Shown here one piece after another: positions 13,192 through 30,319 of a stretch of DNA of 41,512 nucleotides. The notes beneath the pieces are model-generated. The model worked only from the letters and a program-made list of their open reading frames with translations, made no database searches and had not been told where the DNA came from. A program made the translations under genes and the position numbers. How positions within the stretch are numbered: the first letter of the stretch is position 1; each line of letters begins with the position of its first letter. Source of the DNA: Acidobacteriota bacterium (GTDB lineage: Bacteria > Acidobacteriota > Holophagae > Thermotomaculales > Thermotomaculaceae); the NCBI GenBank assembly GCA_013152385.1, contig JAADGL010000019.1:1-41512 (forward strand), in the 5' to 3' direction.

Positions 13192-14298
13192 ATGCAGGAA
13201 AATCAGATTCGAAATAGATACCAAAGCACAAACGGCCGAATTGACCGGGTTGTCCGGTTTATAATCAGGTTACTGATAAGCCTGACAGTCCTTTATTCCG
13301 GAACATTCTTCTTCTTTTATGTCGTATGTGAACAAATATTACATCTCAATATGGATTCCGGCCATCAACTCGAAAGTTTCATTACAATTTCTATTCTTCT
13401 ACTTTTTCTCTGGGTTGTAATTGAATTTCTATTCAATCAATGCTCTCATTTCCTCTGGTTGCCTGTGTTTTTTCTCATTGGAATCACCCTGTACACATTT
13501 TCATGGATACCGGTCAGTTATAATGCCCATCTTCTGAATTTCTCATACCCCCGCTGGAGCGACCCTTTTGTATTTTTAAGGAAAGGAATCGGATCGGGAA
13601 TTCCCCCATGTCTCCTGCTGGCAGCTATGCTGATTCGGATACGAAAAACCTATCCTTTTCGAAAGCGAAAATTGCTCTTTCGTTCTATTCTGTCCATCGT
13701 TATTATTGCCGCCTTCTTCCCCATGCTCTCCCGCCTGGGAATCGTCTATTTCTACCGCGTAACATTAAAACCCAAAACCCGCACCATGGTTCAATTGATC
13801 AACGACCTGAAAGATCCGGAATTCGGATTCGGAACCGGCAACACTGTCCTTCTCTATCCATATAGTTATTCCGACAAGCTGGGAAAATTACTGATACCAT
13901 ATGAATTTTCTTATATTAAAAAGATGGGGAAAAAAACCGGTTTTGAACTAACAACCATGGAATGCCTTTATCTCTACGCACAAACAAGCCCTTTACCTGT
14001 ATCATGGGATAAAATTAAACTTCGCAATATAGAATTTATTGAGTCCCGGTTTACGGATCAAGACGAAGACAAATTCGGAGGATTACGGAATTACTGGGCA
14101 GCAAGATGGGAACGTTACGGCCACCGCGACTTTGTCTACATCAGCAAACCCCTGTTTTCACGAAACTGCAAATGGGCAATTATGACTATTTCCCGAAATT
14201 GTGGCAGCCTCTGCGAATATACTTATTGCCTGTTTCTGCATCTGGATGCCGATGGCATCTGGCGGGTCAGGATAAAAAAACTTACTTCCATGAGTTGA
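13192..14298 (+). CDS. Unknown polytopic membrane protein
   Basis: I do not recognise this 368-residue protein. Its first half has four or five hydrophobic helices (about residues 22-45, 63-82, 88-108, 135-152 and 163-185); the second half (about 190-368) appears soluble, with a cysteine-containing segment SRNCGSLCEYTYCLF and an ending WRVRIKKL. No ribosome site precedes the ATG at 13192. TATAAT occurs at 13145-13150, but the -35 region is poor. The gene is clearly more AT-rich than its neighbours, as is the convergent gene downstream. The two may have arrived together. Confidence 0.65.
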   Translation: MQENQIRNRYQSTNGRIDRVVRFIIRLLISLTVLYSGTFFFFYVVCEQILHLNMDSGHQLESFITISILLLFLWVVIEFLFNQCSHFLWLPVFFLIGITLYTFSWIPVSYNAHLLNFSYPRWSDPFVFLRKGIGSGIPPCLLLAAMLIRIRKTYPFRKRKLLFRSILSIVIIAAFFPMLSRLGIVYFYRVTLKPKTRTMVQLINDLKDPEFGFGTGNTVLLYPYSYSDKLGKLLIPYEFSYIKKMGKKTGFELTTMECLYLYAQTSPLPVSWDKIKLRNIEFIESRFTDQDEDKFGGLRNYWAARWERYGHRDFVYISKPLFSRNCKWAIMTISRNCGSLCEYTYCLFLHLDADGIWRVRIKKLTSMS

Positions 14299-14453: not shown

Positions 14454-15128
14454 TCAATTATCTGTCCTTTTTTTAACAAAATATTGTCCGCTGTAATCGG
14501 CCTGGTAAACAACAAGATGAAAGTGCCGGGACAAATATCCAATGACCATCAGGTCATACCTGATAGAATCATTTGCATGTCCCATCAATGCCTCTTTCAT
14601 TTGCCAATAGCGTCCTTTATCCACAAAGTACCTGCCAAGAAACTCTCTTAAAAGCAATTTATTATTCCCCTTCGCGAAAGTCTCATAGTCAGACCATGCA
14701 ATTAATTCACTGGAAAATCGATCTAACTTCTCTTCAGGCAGAACAACACTAAGCCCGTCTTCAGCAGACTCATCCATCTTCATGGCCCAGTAAAGGACAG
14801 TAATATTCCAATTACCATGTTTACCTGGACAGTCCGCCATCGAAATAAATGAAGCTACCCCCGTAACCAATAAAAAGTTTGTACCGTCTACTGTTTTTAC
14901 TTTGAGAACATATTGAGGAGATGTCATACTCGCTGAATTTTCAACCAATTCATTCAGCCAGGACGTTTGAAACTGTGGCTTCTTGGCACAACGTTGAAGC
15001 TCTGCCCGCTGTTTTCTTAATTTCTCTGTTTGCTTCTTCAAATCAGCACAATGCCTGACAAAAACAACAGTTATAATTAAAAAAATAAGTGGTACTGTGA
15101 AATTAAAAAAATTTTTCATCGGTTCCAT
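14454..15128 (-). CDS. Unknown single-pass membrane protein
   Basis: The product of about 224 residues has one N-terminal hydrophobic segment (FFNFTVPLIFLIITVVFV), then a charged coiled-coil stretch (DLKKQTEKLRKQRAELQR), then a domain of unknown type that contains FLLVTGVASFISM and ends YQADYSGQYFVKKR. The frame opens upstream at 15185, but the membrane segment fits a start at 15128 or 15119; neither has a strong ribosome site. It is convergent with the preceding unknown membrane protein and AT-richer than the flanking operons. A role in the cell envelope is possible but not shown. Confidence 0.6.
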   Translation of the reverse strand: MEPMKNFFNFTVPLIFLIITVVFVRHCADLKKQTEKLRKQRAELQRCAKKPQFQTSWLNELVENSASMTSPQYVLKVKTVDGTNFLLVTGVASFISMADCPGKHGNWNITVLYWAMKMDESAEDGLSVVLPEEKLDRFSSELIAWSDYETFAKGNNKLLLREFLGRYFVDKGRYWQMKEALMGHANDSIRYDLMVIGYLSRHFHLVVYQADYSGQYFVKKRTDN

Positions 15129-15222
15129 CTCTTGAAAATTTTTTCTTACGATCCCGAAAATATCATACCAAACGTTGCACAGCATTTTCCAACACCAGCA
15201 CTTCCACCCGCGCTATGCAGGG

Positions 15223-22195: not shown

Positions 22196-22663
22196 GTGAA
22201 TCGGGACTTCTATATCAGAAATGGGACAGAACAATCCGGGCCGTACACGGAAACGGAAATTCAAGCTTATGTTCACTCCGGGCACGTAACACCTCAATCT
22301 CTCTGCTGGCGGGAAGGAATGACAGCCTGGCTGCCGGTGTGGCAGATGTTTCCGGGATTTTTCCCTTCCCCGCAAACAGGTGCCCCAACACCGGTTTCCC
22401 CGTCACCGGATTCTCCAGACCCCCTTCAGCCGGCAACAACAGTTTCGCCGCCTCCACCCCGGAAACGCTCCTGTTGCTGCAGCGGCTGTCTGATTATGAT
22501 TGTACTCATTATCCTTCTCATCGGTGGAATTGCAGGTGTGGCATGGTATAAATACCGGCAGCCGCCTTCTCCCGTTGATAAAGAATATAAAACAATCCCG
22601 GATTATTTCCCCCCGGCCTCGAAAATCAATTCCTGGTTCATCTCAGACGGAGGGATAATATGA
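22196..22663 (+). CDS. GYF-domain single-pass membrane protein
   Basis: The 155-residue protein starts with a GYF_2-type domain (FYIRNGTEQSGPYTETEIQAYV...SLCWREGMTAWLPV, about residues 5-50), a fold that usually binds proline-rich peptides. A Pro/Ser/Thr-rich linker, a cysteine cluster (CCCSGC) and one membrane helix (about 98-118) follow, then a short extracytoplasmic tail. The GTG at 22196 is preceded by GGGGG. It overlaps the next gene by ATGA, so the two are likely made together and may act together: GYF and FHA domains would both be in the cytoplasm. Confidence 0.8.
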   Translation: MNRDFYIRNGTEQSGPYTETEIQAYVHSGHVTPQSLCWREGMTAWLPVWQMFPGFFPSPQTGAPTPVSPSPDSPDPLQPATTVSPPPPRKRSCCCSGCLIMIVLIILLIGGIAGVAWYKYRQPPSPVDKEYKTIPDYFPPASKINSWFISDGGII

Positions 22664-25600
22664 AACAAATTTCGGTTTTTGTGCTGTTTTTTCTAATGAG
22701 CTGGACATCCGCAGTTTACGGACAGCAGCCGGGGGGAAACCTGCGGCTTTTCCTTGAACCCGGCATACAGGAACTGCCCGGTGACGGGGACACAACAACA
22801 ACGATTACCATTACACTTCGCAACAATGAAGGCGAACTTGTGAATAAAAGCGGAACCGTTCAATTAAAATTGAACGCGGGGCGTCTGGTTCCGGCAAGGG
22901 TAAAACTGAAAAATGGAATCGGACAGGCAACATTCACCGCTCCGATTCTGGATAACGAAAATAAGGTTTTTCAACGTTCAATCCGGTTAACAATGGCAAT
23001 CATACAACAGCTTAAAGGAAAATCTGTTTCCGAACTGACCGGGAAACACGCCTATGAAATGAACATGAAAACCGCCCGTAATGTCGCAACGGGAATGGCC
23101 AGCGCGTCAGGGATGACAAGCATTCAGGGGAAAACACCGACGGTTCATATCATTGGAGAAATAAACGGACTACGGGGAAAATGCGCAATCCGGATTCTGA
23201 AAGTGAACGGGCCTGTCAGTGCAGGCCTGCGTCCGGGAATTTATGCCGGCCGGGATGTGACCGGTTCGTCCCGGTGGAAACTGACTGTCAGACGGGGCGG
23301 CCCCGGCTATATCGGCACAATCCGGACCGGCGGCGGAGAAATGTCTTTCCGGTCAAAGGGAGAAAAAAAAGGCGGATTTCTGATTGTGTACCTCTTTGAC
23401 CAACGGGATATGCGGGCAACAAAAAACAGCAGCTTTCTGGGATGGCCCACATTAATGAAAGTATTACCCGGAAATGCCCTCTACATAGCGGCACCGCCGG
23501 TATATCTCACAAGAAAAGGAGACATCCCCGAAGAAGGATATGGAACGGAAGAAAGGCCGGAAGAAACGGAAAAGGTTTCACTGATTGTAAAACAAAACAT
23601 CCTCCCCGGTGACGGTAAAAGTGAGACACAAATAACATTTATTTACCGGAATAAAAAAGGACGGCCGAAACCGGGTATTCCGGTTCGCCTCCAAATCGGC
23701 CAAAACCAGATGGGAGGCAGCTTAATTCAGCCAAACGGCCGGACAGATTCCAGAGGAATTTTCCGCTGCCGGTATCGGGCCCCTTTATTCAAAACCAACA
23801 ATTTTCAGAAGCTGGGCACCTGCAAACAGGATATTGTATGGGCGTACTACCGGGACGGCAGAAAAGAAAAATATGTAACTTCCAAAGTGGGGATTCTCTG
23901 TTGTACCGACGCATTCCTGAAAGTTTCCAAAATCGGCTTTGATGAGAAACAGAAACTTCCGGTGGTGGTGGCCAGTCCGAGAGGCGAATTCTCCGGTAAA
24001 CTGGAAGCCCGGATCCATAATTGGATATCTCCGGCTTATCTGGAGCCGGTTGCTTTTGCCGGGGTCAAACTGGATGGCGGAGCGTTATCGGGACACAGCA
24101 GCCTTTTCCGCACGGAGACCGCAAAAGACGGCTCATTCAAAATTCACATGAACTATAAAAATTGGCCGTATTTCTGGAATTACAGGAAAAAGAAACCATA
24201 TCGTGTGAGATTTTCCGGCTCTCACGTCAAACGGCGGGATTCTCTGGGCAAAAGCCTGATGGCATTTACAGATCTCCGGTTCCGCTTCCGGGCATCCGGC
24301 GCATTGAACAGAATGGAAAGCCGTATCTGCCGGGCTCCGGTTCCCGAGGCCAGACAGATTGAGTGGAAATTCCAGCTTCTTGGAGATCTGATGGCAGTTT
24401 ACAATATGTCTGAAAAACTCGTAGCAGACACAACCGGGGAAATCATTTCCCATGGCTGGGGGCTTTTGGGAATGCTTTGGGATTTTGCCAACAAAAAATT
24501 TAAATTCACAAAAATACTTGACCGCAGGCTGAAACAGGCAAACGATAAGCTTGAAGGGAAATTAAAGCTTCGGAATGAAGCGGGGAAAAGCAGCATGCCC
24601 CGGTTTATTTTCGAAAAACTGAAAAGCATTCTCATGCGGAATCAGCCGAAGGGGATGGGAAAACATGTCGTCATTCTGATGCAGCATACAAACGCCAAAA
24701 TATTTGATCAGCTGAAAGGGCTGCTGGCCAGTGTTGCGGACAGCCTGGCAAAGGTAAAAAAATGGGAACTGAATCCGGTTCCGGGGCTTATTACCGACTC
24801 TGTGAAAATTAATTTCAGGAAGCAAAGTCAAATGCAGCTGGAAGTTTTTCTGCGGACTCCCCTGCATTTATCCGAAGATGAATTTAACCGACTCCAGCAT
24901 TTCCTGGTAAATAAAAGCGGTAGGCTCCGGCTTTACTATGAAGGCATTGCAACGGGACGCAGAATCAGCGAAGAAACAAAGGCATGGAAAGACCTCGCAG
25001 TTGACTTAAGCCAGGCGTTGGCTGTCGGTCTTGCCGCAGGAACCGGACAGATCTGGGCATTGAGAGCATGGGAAAAATTAAAAAAAATGTCTGATATTCT
25101 GGATAAAATGTACGAAGGTAGCGGTTTTGTACTGGAAATCTGGAATGTGGCAACACTGGAAGCCGATTGTATTGAAATGTTCCGTATCACCAACAGCCGG
25201 CTGGGCGCCCGGCCGGCTTCAGCTGCATTTTCCAATGCAAAAAGTCTGTTCCGGCCTGTCTATGCCGATGAGGCAAGGGGCAAGCGGGTTTCCCCGCCAC
25301 CGGCCTTATCTGTTACTGATGCCGCTTCCCTTGAACTGAACAGCGGCGCCATCCCTGTGGAATCCCTGGCAATCTTCATTGAAAAATGGGAAAACCGGCA
25401 GGCATGGGCCAATAAAAACGAAAATATCCTGTGGCTGGGAGGAGCGGAAGGAAACAGTGCTGTAAAAATGCTGCGCGCCCGGGATGAAATCTCTTCCGCA
25501 TTGACGGAACTGAAAATTCTGACGGCTTTTTCCAATGGTTTTCTCGGTGACCCGAAAAGCAGAGGCTGTTGGGAAAACGCAGTTTCAAAAATTGACGATA

Positions 25601-26130
25601 ATTTAAACCGACTTGACAGCACAACTCTTGAAACCTTTCAAAAAGGCCTCCGGATTCAGAAACAGTTGACGGATGAGACTGGAAAAAAGATTTCTCTGCC
25701 GGGACGCCGCCGCTCCACCGGTTGGCATTGGCTGATTTTAACCGGTATCGTCTTTACCGGGGCGGGAGGACTGCTGTTACTCATTGCGGTGAGAAAAAAG
25801 AACAGGGCTTCAAGGGGATTTGACACCGGTTCTCCGGCAGGGGGAAACAGAATAAATCCCCGGCTGTTAATCCCCGGCGGGGAGGAAGTTGCCCTTGAGA
25901 AGAAAATGACTGTCGGGTCTGCTCCGGATAATGCCATTGTCCTGCCTTATGCCGGTGTTCTGCCCCGCCATGCCGTTTTGTACCGGGCGGATAACGGAAA
26001 CTGGTGGGTTGAATCCGCAGCTGCCGGAAACAGCATAGACGTAAACGGCCGGACGGGACATTCATTCTGGCTTTCACACGGGAGCCGAATCCGGCTGGGT
26101 TCGGCCGAACTCATTTTTATGCTTTCATAA
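22660..26130 (+). CDS. Exported Ig-like protein with TM helix and FHA
   Basis: The 1156-residue protein has an N-terminal signal peptide (KQISVFVLFFLMSWTSAVYGQQ region), then two bacterial Ig-like segments of the type 'PGDGDTTTTITITLRN' (about 25-115) and 'PGDGKSETQITFIYRN' (about 305-400). A long alpha/beta region without recognised family follows. A single TM helix lies at about 1021-1042, and a C-terminal FHA domain at about 1068-1156 has GSAPDNAIVLP, LPRHAVLY and DVNGRTG. FHA domains bind phosphothreonine; here the FHA would be cytoplasmic while the bulk is outside, which suggests signalling across the membrane or anchoring to a phosphorylated partner. The FHA core GR is GS and SRH is PRH, so phosphopeptide binding is not certain. 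No Ser/Thr kinase is visible in the window. Confidence 0.82.
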   Translation: MKQISVFVLFFLMSWTSAVYGQQPGGNLRLFLEPGIQELPGDGDTTTTITITLRNNEGELVNKSGTVQLKLNAGRLVPARVKLKNGIGQATFTAPILDNENKVFQRSIRLTMAIIQQLKGKSVSELTGKHAYEMNMKTARNVATGMASASGMTSIQGKTPTVHIIGEINGLRGKCAIRILKVNGPVSAGLRPGIYAGRDVTGSSRWKLTVRRGGPGYIGTIRTGGGEMSFRSKGEKKGGFLIVYLFDQRDMRATKNSSFLGWPTLMKVLPGNALYIAAPPVYLTRKGDIPEEGYGTEERPEETEKVSLIVKQNILPGDGKSETQITFIYRNKKGRPKPGIPVRLQIGQNQMGGSLIQPNGRTDSRGIFRCRYRAPLFKTNNFQKLGTCKQDIVWAYYRDGRKEKYVTSKVGILCCTDAFLKVSKIGFDEKQKLPVVVASPRGEFSGKLEARIHNWISPAYLEPVAFAGVKLDGGALSGHSSLFRTETAKDGSFKIHMNYKNWPYFWNYRKKKPYRVRFSGSHVKRRDSLGKSLMAFTDLRFRFRASGALNRMESRICRAPVPEARQIEWKFQLLGDLMAVYNMSEKLVADTTGEIISHGWGLLGMLWDFANKKFKFTKILDRRLKQANDKLEGKLKLRNEAGKSSMPRFIFEKLKSILMRNQPKGMGKHVVILMQHTNAKIFDQLKGLLASVADSLAKVKKWELNPVPGLITDSVKINFRKQSQMQLEVFLRTPLHLSEDEFNRLQHFLVNKSGRLRLYYEGIATGRRISEETKAWKDLAVDLSQALAVGLAAGTGQIWALRAWEKLKKMSDILDKMYEGSGFVLEIWNVATLEADCIEMFRITNSRLGARPASAAFSNAKSLFRPVYADEARGKRVSPPPALSVTDAASLELNSGAIPVESLAIFIEKWENRQAWANKNENILWLGGAEGNSAVKMLRARDEISSALTELKILTAFSNGFLGDPKSRGCWENAVSKIDDNLNRLDSTTLETFQKGLRIQKQLTDETGKKISLPGRRRSTGWHWLILTGIVFTGAGGLLLLIAVRKKNRASRGFDTGSPAGGNRINPRLLIPGGEEVALEKKMTVGSAPDNAIVLPYAGVLPRHAVLYRADNGNWWVESAAAGNSIDVNGRTGHSFWLSHGSRIRLGSAELIFMLS

Positions 26131-26170
26131 TTTCTCTGCCGAAAACGCTTCGCCGGTGATTGAAAAATTC

Positions 26171-26199
26171 TTGAGAAATCAGCCGGGGTACGGTATTCT
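26171..26199 (+). promoter_or_regulatory. Promoter of the ceramide operon
   Basis: TTGAGA (26171-26176) and TATTCT (26194-26199) are spaced by 17 bases. The predicted start near 26206 gives a leader of about 40 bases before the ATG at 26246. Confidence 0.65.
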
Positions 26200-26245
26200 T
26201 ACATCATTGGGAAGTTTCTTTTACAATCCAAACAGTGGGGGAATC

Positions 26246-27436
26246 ATGACAAGTCCGATTTTGAAGCGGGTTCGGGGATTTCAGGAGGCAAAACAGTTGA
26301 TGAATCTTGGGCTTTATCCCTATTTCCGGCCCATTTCCTCCGAACAGGACACCGAAGTAATTATTGACGGGAAAAAGATGCTGATGCTGGGCTCCAACTC
26401 TTATCTCGGGTTGACCAACGACCCCCGGGTGAAAAAGGCCGCGGCAGACGCAGTGCTGAAATACGGGACAGGGTGTGCCGGCTCCCGTTTTCTGAACGGA
26501 ACATTGTCAATCCATGAAGAACTGGAAGAACGGCTTGCCGCGCTGGTGGGAAAAGAAGCCGCTTTACTGTTTTCCACCGGTTTCATGGTAAACCAGGGGG
26601 TTATCAGCGCGCTGGTGGGCCCTCATGATTACATAATCATGGACAAACTGGACCATGCCTCCATTGTGGACGGCGCAAGGCTGGCATTCGGCCGGCGCAT
26701 CAAATATGACCACAATGACATGGCGGATCTGGAAAAGAAAACCCAGGCGCTCCCTGAAAATTCCGGAAAACTGATTGCCGTGGACGGAGTTTTTTCCATG
26801 GACGGAGATATCGCGGACATTCCCCGCATGGTGGAAATCGCCGAAGCCAGCGGCTCGCTGCTGATGGTGGATGAAGCCCATTCCATCGGTGTCCTCGGCA
26901 AACACGGAGAAGGGGCCACTGCCCATTTCGGCCTGTCTGACCGGGTAGACCTGATCATGGGGACATTCAGCAAATCCCTTGCCGCAATCGGTGGATTTGT
27001 GGCATCCGACAAAGATATGATCCATTACCTCCGGCACAATGCCAGAGCATTAATGTTCAGCGCCAGCCCGCCCCCTGCAATGGTGGCTGCGGTGATGGCA
27101 TCCCTGGAAATCATGGAAAAAGAACCGGAACGGCTGGAACGGCTCTGGCACAATACAAAACGAATGGAAACCGGATTGAAAGCAATGGGGTTTCAGACCG
27201 GTGCCAGCGAAACTCCGATCCTCCCGGTGGAAATCGGGGATTACATGAAAACCTTTGAATACTGCAGAGCGTTGAACGATGCCGGCGTCTTTGTCAATCC
27301 TGTTGTGCCCCCTGCGGTACGGCCGGATCAATCGTTAATCCGGGTCAGCCTGATGGCTACCCACACCGACGGGCAAATTGACCGGGCTCTGGATATTTTC
27401 GAACGCATCGGCAAAAAAATGGGGCTGCTGTCATGA
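26246..27436 (+). CDS. spt: Serine palmitoyltransferase-like PLP enzyme
   Basis: The 396-residue alpha-oxoamine synthase joins an acyl thioester to an amino acid with loss of CO2; in serine palmitoyltransferase the product is 3-ketosphinganine. Motifs: GSNSYLGLTNDPRV, YGTGCAGSRFLNGT, DKLDHASIVDG, VDEAHSIG, and TFSKSLAAIGG with the PLP lysine near residue 242. The GTGCAGSRFLNGT block and the FRPI/SEQDTEV start are those of Bacteroides/Sphingobacterium-type SPT rather than BioF or Kbl, as I recall them. The ATG at 26246 follows GGGGG; the frame extends 30 codons upstream through the promoter. It overlaps the next gene by ATGA. The following three genes support the SPT role. Confidence 0.85.
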   Translation: MTSPILKRVRGFQEAKQLMNLGLYPYFRPISSEQDTEVIIDGKKMLMLGSNSYLGLTNDPRVKKAAADAVLKYGTGCAGSRFLNGTLSIHEELEERLAALVGKEAALLFSTGFMVNQGVISALVGPHDYIIMDKLDHASIVDGARLAFGRRIKYDHNDMADLEKKTQALPENSGKLIAVDGVFSMDGDIADIPRMVEIAEASGSLLMVDEAHSIGVLGKHGEGATAHFGLSDRVDLIMGTFSKSLAAIGGFVASDKDMIHYLRHNARALMFSASPPPAMVAAVMASLEIMEKEPERLERLWHNTKRMETGLKAMGFQTGASETPILPVEIGDYMKTFEYCRALNDAGVFVNPVVPPAVRPDQSLIRVSLMATHTDGQIDRALDIFERIGKKMGLLS

Positions 27437-28542
27437 ATGTCCGGCCGGTTGAATCCAAAGCCGATATGGAACGGTTTATCCGATTCCCAATGAAGCTTCA
27501 CCGTGACAATCCCAATTTTGTGCCCCATCTTCTGATGGAGCGCCGTGACTTTTTCAACCCGAAAAAAAATCCCTTTTTCGACCACGCGAAAGTGGTTTAC
27601 TTTCTCTGTGAAGATGGCCGGAAAATTGTGGGAAGAATCGCCGCCATTGTCAATAACGCCCACAATGAATTTCACGGAGACAAAGTCGGTTTTTTCGGAT
27701 TCTTTGACTGCGAAAACAACCGGGAAACCGCCCATGCCCTGTTATCAAAAGCTGCCGCGTGGCTGAAAGAACAGGGAATGGACACCATGCGCGGGCCGGC
27801 GAACTTCTCCACCAACGATGAATGCGGCCTGCTGGTGGAGGGAACGGATCAGCCCCCGGTTTTTATGATGACCTGGAATCCCGCATACTATGAAGAACTG
27901 GTCGAATCTTTCGGATTGAAAAAAGTAATGGATTTGTACGCCTACTACGCCGATATGACAGACCTTCCCATGGAGAAACTGACAAGGCAGGCAAACATGA
28001 TACTGGAAAAAACCGGCGTAACGGTACGAAAAGCATCATTGAAGCATCTGGAACGGGAAATTGCAGACGCATTTCAGATTTACAACAAAGCATGGGAAAA
28101 AAACTGGGGTTTCATTCCGATGACTGAAGCGGAATTTACCCACGCGGCAAAAGATCTGAAAATGATTCTGGATGAAGATTATCTGTTTTTTGCTGAAAAA
28201 GACGGAAAATCAGTGGGCTTTTCCCTGACACTTCCGGATTTGAACCGGGTGCTGATAAAAATGAACGGACGGCTGTTTCCCACGGGGATTTTTCACCTTC
28301 TCTTCGGGAAAAAGCACATTGACACGGTTCGGGTCATCACCATGGGGCTGCTGCCGGAATACCGCCGTCAGGGCATTGACCTTCTCCTCTATTTCAGAAC
28401 CATCGAAGAAGCTTTCCGAAAAGGCGTGAAAGGCGGAGAAATGTCCTGGATTCTGGAAAACAACCTCGTGATGAACCATATCGCGGAAAAAGTGGGGGGA
28501 CGCCGCTACAAAACGTACCGGTTTTACGAGAAACCGCTATGA
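27433..28542 (+). CDS. GNAT-type acyltransferase, probable ceramide synthase
   Basis: The 369-residue protein has a GNAT-like C-terminal half with the acyl-CoA loop MGLLPEYRRQGIDLLL (about 304-319) and a conserved N-terminal half with GPANFSTNDECGLLVEG. Proteins of this type are found next to spt in several bacteria, and in Caulobacter the N-acyltransferase that forms the amide of ceramide (bCerS) is a GNAT-superfamily protein unrelated to eukaryotic Lass/CerS. Position directly after spt, with an ATGA overlap at both ends, supports N-acylation of the sphingoid base. Assignment is by context and fold, not by a diagnostic residue. Confidence 0.72.
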   Translation: MNVRPVESKADMERFIRFPMKLHRDNPNFVPHLLMERRDFFNPKKNPFFDHAKVVYFLCEDGRKIVGRIAAIVNNAHNEFHGDKVGFFGFFDCENNRETAHALLSKAAAWLKEQGMDTMRGPANFSTNDECGLLVEGTDQPPVFMMTWNPAYYEELVESFGLKKVMDLYAYYADMTDLPMEKLTRQANMILEKTGVTVRKASLKHLEREIADAFQIYNKAWEKNWGFIPMTEAEFTHAAKDLKMILDEDYLFFAEKDGKSVGFSLTLPDLNRVLIKMNGRLFPTGIFHLLFGKKHIDTVRVITMGLLPEYRRQGIDLLLYFRTIEEAFRKGVKGGEMSWILENNLVMNHIAEKVGGRRYKTYRFYEKPL

Positions 28543-29501
28543 AACATGCGTTCCTGACGGGAGCCACCGGCTTTATCGGCCATCATCTCGCAAAACTGCT
28601 GCTGAAACGGGGTGTCCGTGTCACCGCGCTGGCAAGAGACCCCTCCCGCCTGAACAATCTTCCGGTGGATACACTGAAAGGCGACATCACCCTGCCCGGC
28701 ACCCTGAACATTCCTCCGGATGTGGATACGGTTTTCCACCTTGCCGGACTGACCAAAGCAAGAAAACGGCAGGATTATTTTGATGTGAACGCAAGGGGAA
28801 CGGAAAATCTGCTCACAGCGGTAAAACGGGATACGCCCAACGCACACTTCGTGTACATGTCCTCCCTTGCCGCAATCGGCCCTTCTCCCTCGCTGGCAGA
28901 CCCGGTCACGGAAGACACCGCGCCTCACCCGGTGAGCAGTTACGGCGAAAGCAAACTGGCAGGAGAAAAACACGCATTGGCATCCGGTTTATCCCTTACC
29001 ATTATCCGGCCCCCTGCCGTATTCGGAGAAGGCGAAAAAGACATTTTCATGTTTATTCAAATGGCAAACCGGGGGGTTTCGCTCTATCCCGGCTTCGCCG
29101 AGCGCTGGTTTTCTCTGGTGTACGGGCCGGATCTCTGCCTTGCCACAGTGGAACTGACGGAAAAATTCAGAGGCGAAACCACGGCTTTTTTCGTCGCATA
29201 CCCCCAATTCTTCTCCTGGAAACAGTTTCGTGAAGCAGTGGCAGAAACACTGGGCAAAAGAGTCCGCACCATTCGCTTTCCCCTTGCGGGAATTTATCCC
29301 ATCGCACTGATTCAGGAAATGATTTCTTTTTTCAACAGGAAACCTGCGCTGTTAAACCTGGAGAAATGCCGGGAAATCGTGGCGCCGTACTGGACCTGTG
29401 ACGTATCCCGGATACAAAACAGTAAAATTCTACCTGCAACACCGTTTCCGCAGGCATTGGAGCAGACGGTTCAATGGTACCGAAACAACAACTGGCTGTA
29501 G
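28539..29501 (+). CDS. Extended SDR, probable ceramide reductase (CerR-like)
   Basis: The 320-residue NAD(P)-dependent extended short-chain dehydrogenase has the Rossmann motif TGATGFIGHHLA at the N-terminus and the catalytic YGESK (YxxxK) with upstream SSLAAIG. The family covers epimerases, 3-beta-hydroxysteroid dehydrogenase-like enzymes and the Caulobacter CerR that reduces the 3-keto group in ceramide synthesis. Here it follows spt and the acyltransferase with ATGA overlaps, so reduction of 3-ketosphinganine or 3-ketoceramide is the natural guess. It overlaps the PAP2 gene by 28 bases. Confidence 0.75.
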   Translation: MKHAFLTGATGFIGHHLAKLLLKRGVRVTALARDPSRLNNLPVDTLKGDITLPGTLNIPPDVDTVFHLAGLTKARKRQDYFDVNARGTENLLTAVKRDTPNAHFVYMSSLAAIGPSPSLADPVTEDTAPHPVSSYGESKLAGEKHALASGLSLTIIRPPAVFGEGEKDIFMFIQMANRGVSLYPGFAERWFSLVYGPDLCLATVELTEKFRGETTAFFVAYPQFFSWKQFREAVAETLGKRVRTIRFPLAGIYPIALIQEMISFFNRKPALLNLEKCREIVAPYWTCDVSRIQNSKILPATPFPQALEQTVQWYRNNNWL

Positions 29502-30319
29502 CGGACCGGCTTTTCGGGGTATTCACTCTCTTTCTTTCCCTGTACAGCCTTTTTTCCGCCCACTACACCATTGCCCTGACCACAGGGATGATCGCGGCAG
29601 CCGCCTTTGTCATCATTCGGCTGGACAACATCTTTGACAGCGAAATTCTGCGCTTTCTTCACCACTGGTACCAGCCCATCAGCTATACCTTTTTTTACGA
29701 AGCATCCTGTTCCCTCAACCATGTACTGATTTCCCGGAACCTGGACCCGTTTTTTCAGCACCTGGACAGAATGCTCTTCGGTTTACAGCCGTCGGTGGAA
29801 CTGGCCAAAGCGATTCCCGGCAAAGCAGTGGCGGAATTCTTTTACATCTCCTATTTCAGTTATTACCTGCTGATTCCGATTCTGGGCTTTTCCCTGTACT
29901 GCGGCAGACGCCGGTTGTTTCCCGCCTTCCTCCTCCGGGTTTCGGCGGTCTTCTACTTCTGTTACACCCTCTTTGTGATTCTGCCGGTAATCGGCCCGGA
30001 CACAATGGGCGTTACCCCGCCGCCGGGCTATATTTTTCACAACATTATGGCATTCATCTACGCCCACGGAGAAATCGGAGGCGGCTCCTTCCCATCCTCC
30101 CATGTTGCCGTCGCACTGGCGGTGACCCTGGCAGCGGCAAAGGCCCGTCCCCGGATGTTCCGCTACTTTTTCCTGCCGGACCTTGTGTTTCTCTCCATCG
30201 CCACCGTTTATCTCCGCTACCACTACGCAGTGGACGTTTTTGCCGGCATTGCCACAACTTTTTTCATCTTCACCCTGATTGACCGGTGGGAAAAACGACA
30301 GAAAAAAACAGGCACCTGA
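29474..30319 (+). CDS. PAP2/AUR1-like membrane phosphotransferase
   Basis: The 281-residue polytopic protein has about six hydrophobic helices and the PAP2 core: GSFPSSHVAVA (motif 2) and RYHYAVDVFAG (motif 3, with catalytic His and Asp). Its size and the HYAVDV-type third motif resemble AUR1-like inositolphosphoryl transferases (PAP2_3) more than small PAP2 phosphatases. In Bacteroides a PAP2-type enzyme makes inositol phosphorylceramide. As last gene of the ceramide operon it may add a phosphate-linked head group to ceramide, or dephosphorylate a sphingoid phosphate. The ATG at 29474 lies inside the preceding gene without a strong ribosome site. Confidence 0.75.
   Translation: MVPKQQLAVADRLFGVFTLFLSLYSLFSAHYTIALTTGMIAAAAFVIIRLDNIFDSEILRFLHHWYQPISYTFFYEASCSLNHVLISRNLDPFFQHLDRMLFGLQPSVELAKAIPGKAVAEFFYISYFSYYLLIPILGFSLYCGRRRLFPAFLLRVSAVFYFCYTLFVILPVIGPDTMGVTPPPGYIFHNIMAFIYAHGEIGGGSFPSSHVAVALAVTLAAAKARPRMFRYFFLPDLVFLSIATVYLRYHYAVDVFAGIATTFFIFTLIDRWEKRQKKTGT

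Follow-up and report, generated by a model that had tools for sequence, protein, structure and literature searches.

The locus described here raises the question of what function is served by two overlapping genes for membrane proteins, of which one encodes a large protein with Ig-like domains outside and an FHA domain inside, and the other a small protein with a GYF domain. The preliminary description had treated FHA and GYF as a pair of peptide-recognition domains at the inner face of the membrane, coupled to an adhesive or sensing outer region, and proposed that they could link phospho-signalling or proline-rich partners to a surface structure. The stretch that we analysed (the window, 41,512 nucleotides) represents contig C5 in a genome of 2.57 Mb, G000, which has Acidobacteriota MAGs as its closest named relatives. 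Our findings make an uncharacterised complex of the cell envelope the probable product of the pair, rather than a phospho-signalling adhesin.

Both reading frames and their ATGA overlap could be confirmed, and the features of the pair are collected in the table below. Homologues of the large protein were found in 11 Acidobacteriota genomes including G000: this genome and three more of its genus, G016 (a single genome from the same class but another family), and f18 (n=4), f38 and f8 from elsewhere in the phylum. At E<=1e-18 the protein was detected in 8 of the 395 phylum genomes sampled. Nine genomes from three families (G000-G003, G016, G075, G088, G100, G123) carry the pair with the stop/start overlap, and in all nine genomes in which the upstream sequence is readable the large gene starts just before the end of a small TM gene; for the large genes of G065 and G120 no partner is visible (contig start, scaffold gap). 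A profile of the partner gave strong matches (E<1e-25) in five genomes among 199 from the phylum, all five of which carry the large gene, and the next-best match was at 3e-7. Three of the weak matches (E>1e-7) were read; that of G004 is a GYF-TM protein, that of G130 has a zinc ribbon and that of G120 a zinc ribbon with FHA, and none belongs to the partner family. This survey covered Acidobacteriota, other phyla being covered by one contig scan alone. The architecture of the large gene is kept across distant Acidobacteriota families, and the neighbours of the pair vary by genome: judging from translations read by eye, they are aromatic amino acid and sphingolipid-type genes in G000, genes for a ClC-type channel, a CsrA-like and a FliW-like protein in G016, and NIF3-like and HemW-like genes in f18. 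Judged from its distribution, the overlapping two-gene pair is a real and old unit across Acidobacteriota.

Features of the gene pair, in window coordinates
Feature	Position	Strand	Basis
Small partner, 155 aa, GTG start	22196..22663	+	ORF, GYF_2 match, hydropathy
GYF domain, residues 5-50	22208..22345	+	Pfam; among partners limited to the genus
Basic/Cys cluster RKRSCCCSGC and TM helix, residues 89-118	22460..22549	+	Hydropathy, partner comparison
Conserved extracytoplasmic tail PPSPVDKEYKTIPDYFPP, residues 123-140 (predicted)	22562..22615	+	Partner alignment
ATGA stop/start overlap	22660..22663	+	ORF list and sequence
Large membrane protein Ig-FHA, 1156 aa	22660..26130	+	ORF; homologues in 10 other genomes
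Signal-peptide-like N-terminus, residues 1-21	22660..22722	+	Hydropathy of full-length homologues
Ig-like domain 1 (Invasin_D3), residues 39-96	22774..22947	+	Pfam 3.5e-8
Small beta-rich segment, no family assigned, ~residues 190-290	23227..23529	+	Conserved in alignment; low-confidence strands
Ig-like domain 2 (Big_1), residues 306-370	23575..23769	+	Pfam 5.4e-8, just below cut-off
Recombination junction in relative G003, residues 391-414	23830..23901	+	Identity switch and max-chi test
Beta domain, ~residues 415-515	23902..24204	+	Predicted fold A3, block pLDDT mostly 73-92
Long all-helical region, ~residues 520-1010	24217..25689	+	Predicted fold
TM helix, residues 1024-1044, then RKK	25729..25791	+	Hydropathy
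Cytoplasmic FHA fold, degenerate phosphothreonine pocket, residues 1066-1156	25855..26127	+	Pfam, AlphaFold2, Foldseek, alignment
Terminator-like hairpin with T run over gene end	26096..26113	+	Hairpin scan

Among the surrounding genes of the window, those at 26156-30319 look like a pathway for sphingolipids, with a serine palmitoyltransferase-like and a GNAT-like protein, an NAD-dependent epimerase and a PAP2 protein. An obligatory tie of the pair to this downstream cluster was considered and rejected, since G016, G065 and G120 lack the GNAT-like neighbour and in f18 it is not linked to the pair. Two long ORFs at 13192-14298 and 14454-15185 (368 and 243 aa) gave no Pfam match at 1e-5. Terminator-like matches such as the one at the end of the large gene showed no excess over shuffles in the region overall.

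The domain content expected of the large protein was borne out. Its hydrophobic start is of the signal-peptide type, two Ig-like domains were recognised on the N-terminal side (Big_1 also in the homologues P0002, P0003, P0009, P0010 and P0011), and hydropathy gave one strong TM helix and no other segment above 1.2 besides the N-terminus. Structure prediction placed, with medium confidence, a beta domain and then a long helical region between the Ig-like domains and the membrane. The model of the helical region is of medium confidence (mean pLDDT 67.8), and its comparison with the PDB by Foldseek gave nothing below E=0.07; the weak long-helix matches were disregarded. A full-length fold computed from six sequences was poor (pLDDT 48), and the FHA part alone was used. 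Within the ectodomain, a linker of low conservation (25258-25269) contains an A-x-A motif, VYA↓DE, that resembles a signal-peptidase site, and the homologues have AYA↓DQ, AYA↓QE or AHA↓AG. By sequence, about 1020 N-terminal residues of the large protein lie outside the inner membrane, followed by one crossing and the FHA end in the cytoplasm; the charges of the small partner predict an inside N-terminus and a short conserved tail outside, so that the proposed topology with FHA and GYF inside holds. Downstream of the pair lie lpxB, an MsbA-like ABC transporter gene and a DUF374 gene, and an outer membrane with lipid A is therefore expected. In such a diderm cell the outside region of the large protein should be periplasmic, at least at its base, and we found no sign of surface exposure or adhesion.

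The ectodomain carries a record of exchange between strains. In the relative G003, the large protein is 85-95% identical to that of G000 over about the first 412 residues; beyond this point identity falls to 18-64% up to about residue 1045, compared to 52-95% with G001 over the same part. The switch falls within a single contig. A max-chi test on 950 sites located the break at about residue 391, with chi 474 and p=0.0005, the lowest value attainable with 2000 permutations. The same triplet gave no significant result on three neighbouring genes (p 0.07-0.53); when the alternative parent pair was used, the GNAT gene reached significance (p=0.0015), as the only one of the three. Over L021:3-2516, set against 22660-25100 of the window, the G003 allele consists of a G000-type 5' part and a G001-type 3' part. 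Between G000 and G003, dS was 0.10 in the partner gene and 0.11 over residues 1-150, compared to about 1-2 for the neighbours, suggesting that the exchange was recent. Mosaic alleles of the large protein were also found in a second clade, the f18 genomes. We conclude from these comparisons that strains exchange the ectodomain by recombination, a pattern suggestive of contact with a variable partner.

This polymorphism could also be read as the mark of recognition or immunity, in which the ectodomain, under diversifying selection, would be the target or the recogniser of a rival cell, a phage or a transported protein. Such a role would agree with the mosaicism in two separate clades and with the dN between allele types, at 0.4-1.0 for the C-terminal part of the ectodomain compared to 0.03-0.07 for a neighbouring gene. 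However, dN/dS did not exceed 1 wherever it was computable, giving no sign of positive selection, the location is periplasmic, and Pfam revealed no defence or toxin domain. We consider this explanation unlikely, though it survives better than the other rivals, and it is compatible with the scaffold that we propose below.

A phospho-signalling receptor would sense the outside with its ectodomain, bind a kinase-made phosphothreonine protein with its FHA domain and recruit proline-rich proteins through GYF. The two folds are present, and the genome contains 12 FHA domains and 12 kinase matches. The FHA fold itself is well supported: Pfam recognises it at residues 1084-1147 (1.8e-8), AlphaFold2 with homologues predicted a beta sandwich for residues 1066-1156 (block pLDDT mostly 72-84), this sandwich matches FHA domains in Foldseek with target TM-scores of about 0.8, and a PDB search with the family profile recovers FHA chains at E-values as low as 1e-10. 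A missing FHA fold, named in the preliminary description as an outcome that would refute it, was thus not what the prediction gave. The phosphate pocket argues against the receptor. Conservation among FHA domains is highest at five residues, Gly, Arg, Ser, His and Asn (PMC4238996). The large protein departs from this motif, reading VGS...LPRHA...NSIDVNG, in which Gly and His are kept, an Asn lies near the Asn position, Ser replaces Arg and Pro replaces Ser. The phosphate-binding Arg is lost in all eight homologues read, with Ser, Phe or Ala in its place, and the pocket Ser in six of them, being kept in G100 and G065 alone. The latter two retain SRxH and NG or NS, so that part of the family, going by these residues, may bind phosphopeptides. 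By comparison, GR, Ser and NG are intact in all eight of the other readable FHA domains of G000, which makes phospho-signalling by the large protein unlikely. The other 11 FHA domains of this genome are located on contigs C38, C12, C62, C31, C11 and C3, several in multi-FHA or kinase-adjacent stretches (on C11, FHA at 68677 and a kinase at 67886). Nearby Ser/Thr kinases had been looked for as well, and none of the 12 kinase matches lies on contig C5.

A parallel is offered by YscD, PrgH and MxiG of the type III secretion (T3SS) basal body, which are likewise bitopic in the inner membrane and have, on the cytoplasmic side, an FHA fold with a degenerate phosphothreonine pocket. The pocket of PrgH is poorly conserved, and mutation of pocket residues had no effect on secretion (PMC3635987). 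The differences are that the FHA fold of the large protein is C-terminal and not N-terminal, that its match to the YscD family PF16697 stays below the cut-off (4.8e-7, 30.4 bits versus 33.2), and that neither ring domains nor T3SS genes were found among the genes scanned around the pair. Taking the pocket loss and the PrgH/YscD parallel together, the FHA fold more likely serves docking than the reading of phosphopeptides.

The small partner consists of GYF, a proline-rich linker, a basic/Cys cluster, the TM helix and the extracytoplasmic tail. Its GYF_2 match (PF14237) is clear, at E=1.3e-15 and 57.3 bits versus a gathering cut-off of 25.8. The GYF domain is nevertheless absent from five of the eight complete partners (G016, G075, G088, G100, G123) and present in those of G000, G002 and G003, the G001 partner being cut by a contig end. 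Partners lacking GYF have 92-102 residues where the start is settled, and share a proline-rich N-terminus, a KKKRGCC-like cluster, the TM helix and the tail. In the tail, with the signature EYxxIPxYFPP (P..PV..EY..IP.YF), the P, Y, I, P and Y columns are invariant (n=7 partners). A separate gene in the sister-genus genome G004 (L095:4783-5238) resembles the G000 partner in GYF, proline-rich linker, Cys cluster (GCCLGC) and TM helix. It differs in having neither the EYxxIPxYFPP tail nor an adjoining large gene, indicating that it is the tail, not GYF, that tracks the large gene. On this comparison GYF is a lineage-specific N-terminal add-on, not a conserved part of the partner, and cooperation between GYF and FHA is therefore not the conserved function. 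With GYF missing from most partners and the pocket eroded, we regard the phospho-signalling receptor as decidedly improbable.

The same two cytoplasmic domains also occur on two inner-membrane proteins of the Myxococcus gliding machinery, and the pair could accordingly be part of a machine for gliding or force transduction. In GltG, which is bitopic, the FHA domain is cytosolic (PMC3169522), and GltJ has a GYF domain (NCBIfam match), its model NF033761 matching the GYF part of the small partner at 6.6e-12. However, this match covers the GYF part alone and scores 45 bits versus a curated cut-off of 450, neither protein of the pair gave a TonB match in Pfam at E<=1, and no TolQ/ExbD-type gene was found among the flanking genes scanned. 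Furthermore, the domain order of the FHA protein is reversed, its ectodomain consists of Ig-like and helical parts, and GYF is limited to one genus, all of which makes a gliding machine very improbable. Equally improbable is a surface adhesin with its Ig region displayed outside the cell, since the Big_1/Invasin_D3 domains on the N-terminal side, typical of adhesins and shared with invasin/intimin-type proteins, here belong to a protein of a diderm cell that its own TM helix anchors in the inner membrane, that ends in a cytoplasmic FHA domain, and in which Pfam found neither an outer-membrane barrel nor a LysM anchor.

The reading that we prefer, and to which we give about even chances, is that the pair forms an inner-membrane scaffold with an FHA docking domain and a variable ectodomain that meets a variable partner. 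The two proteins would form one inner-membrane complex, held together by their TM helices or by contact of the partner's EYxxIPxYFPP tail with the large ectodomain at its base. Judging from their length, the Ig-like domains and the helical stalk may reach across the periplasm in the direction of the peptidoglycan or the outer membrane. In the cytoplasm, the FHA fold lacking the phosphate-binding Arg and Ser would serve docking or assembly, as in YscD and PrgH, and the proline-rich N-terminus of the partner, capped by GYF in G000, might recruit a cytoplasmic protein. It is tempting to speculate further that the pair is a new trans-envelope complex of Acidobacteriota, in which a bitopic FHA protein with a dedicated small TM partner uses its recombination-diversified periplasmic ectodomain to recognise a variable partner; we put this forward as a tentative possibility.

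A search of the literature on GYF and gliding, and on FHA and Ig-like domains in Acidobacteria, returned no relevant paper, and no report of the domain combination of the pair was found in the literature searched. The pair provides a two-gene family signature, composed of a Cys-TM-EYxxIPxYFPP partner and an Ig-helical-TM-FHA protein. It adds a further case of an FHA fold in an envelope protein that has apparently been stripped of its phosphate-binding pocket, and its mosaic ectodomain raises the question of which counterpart could require a stalk in the periplasm to vary.
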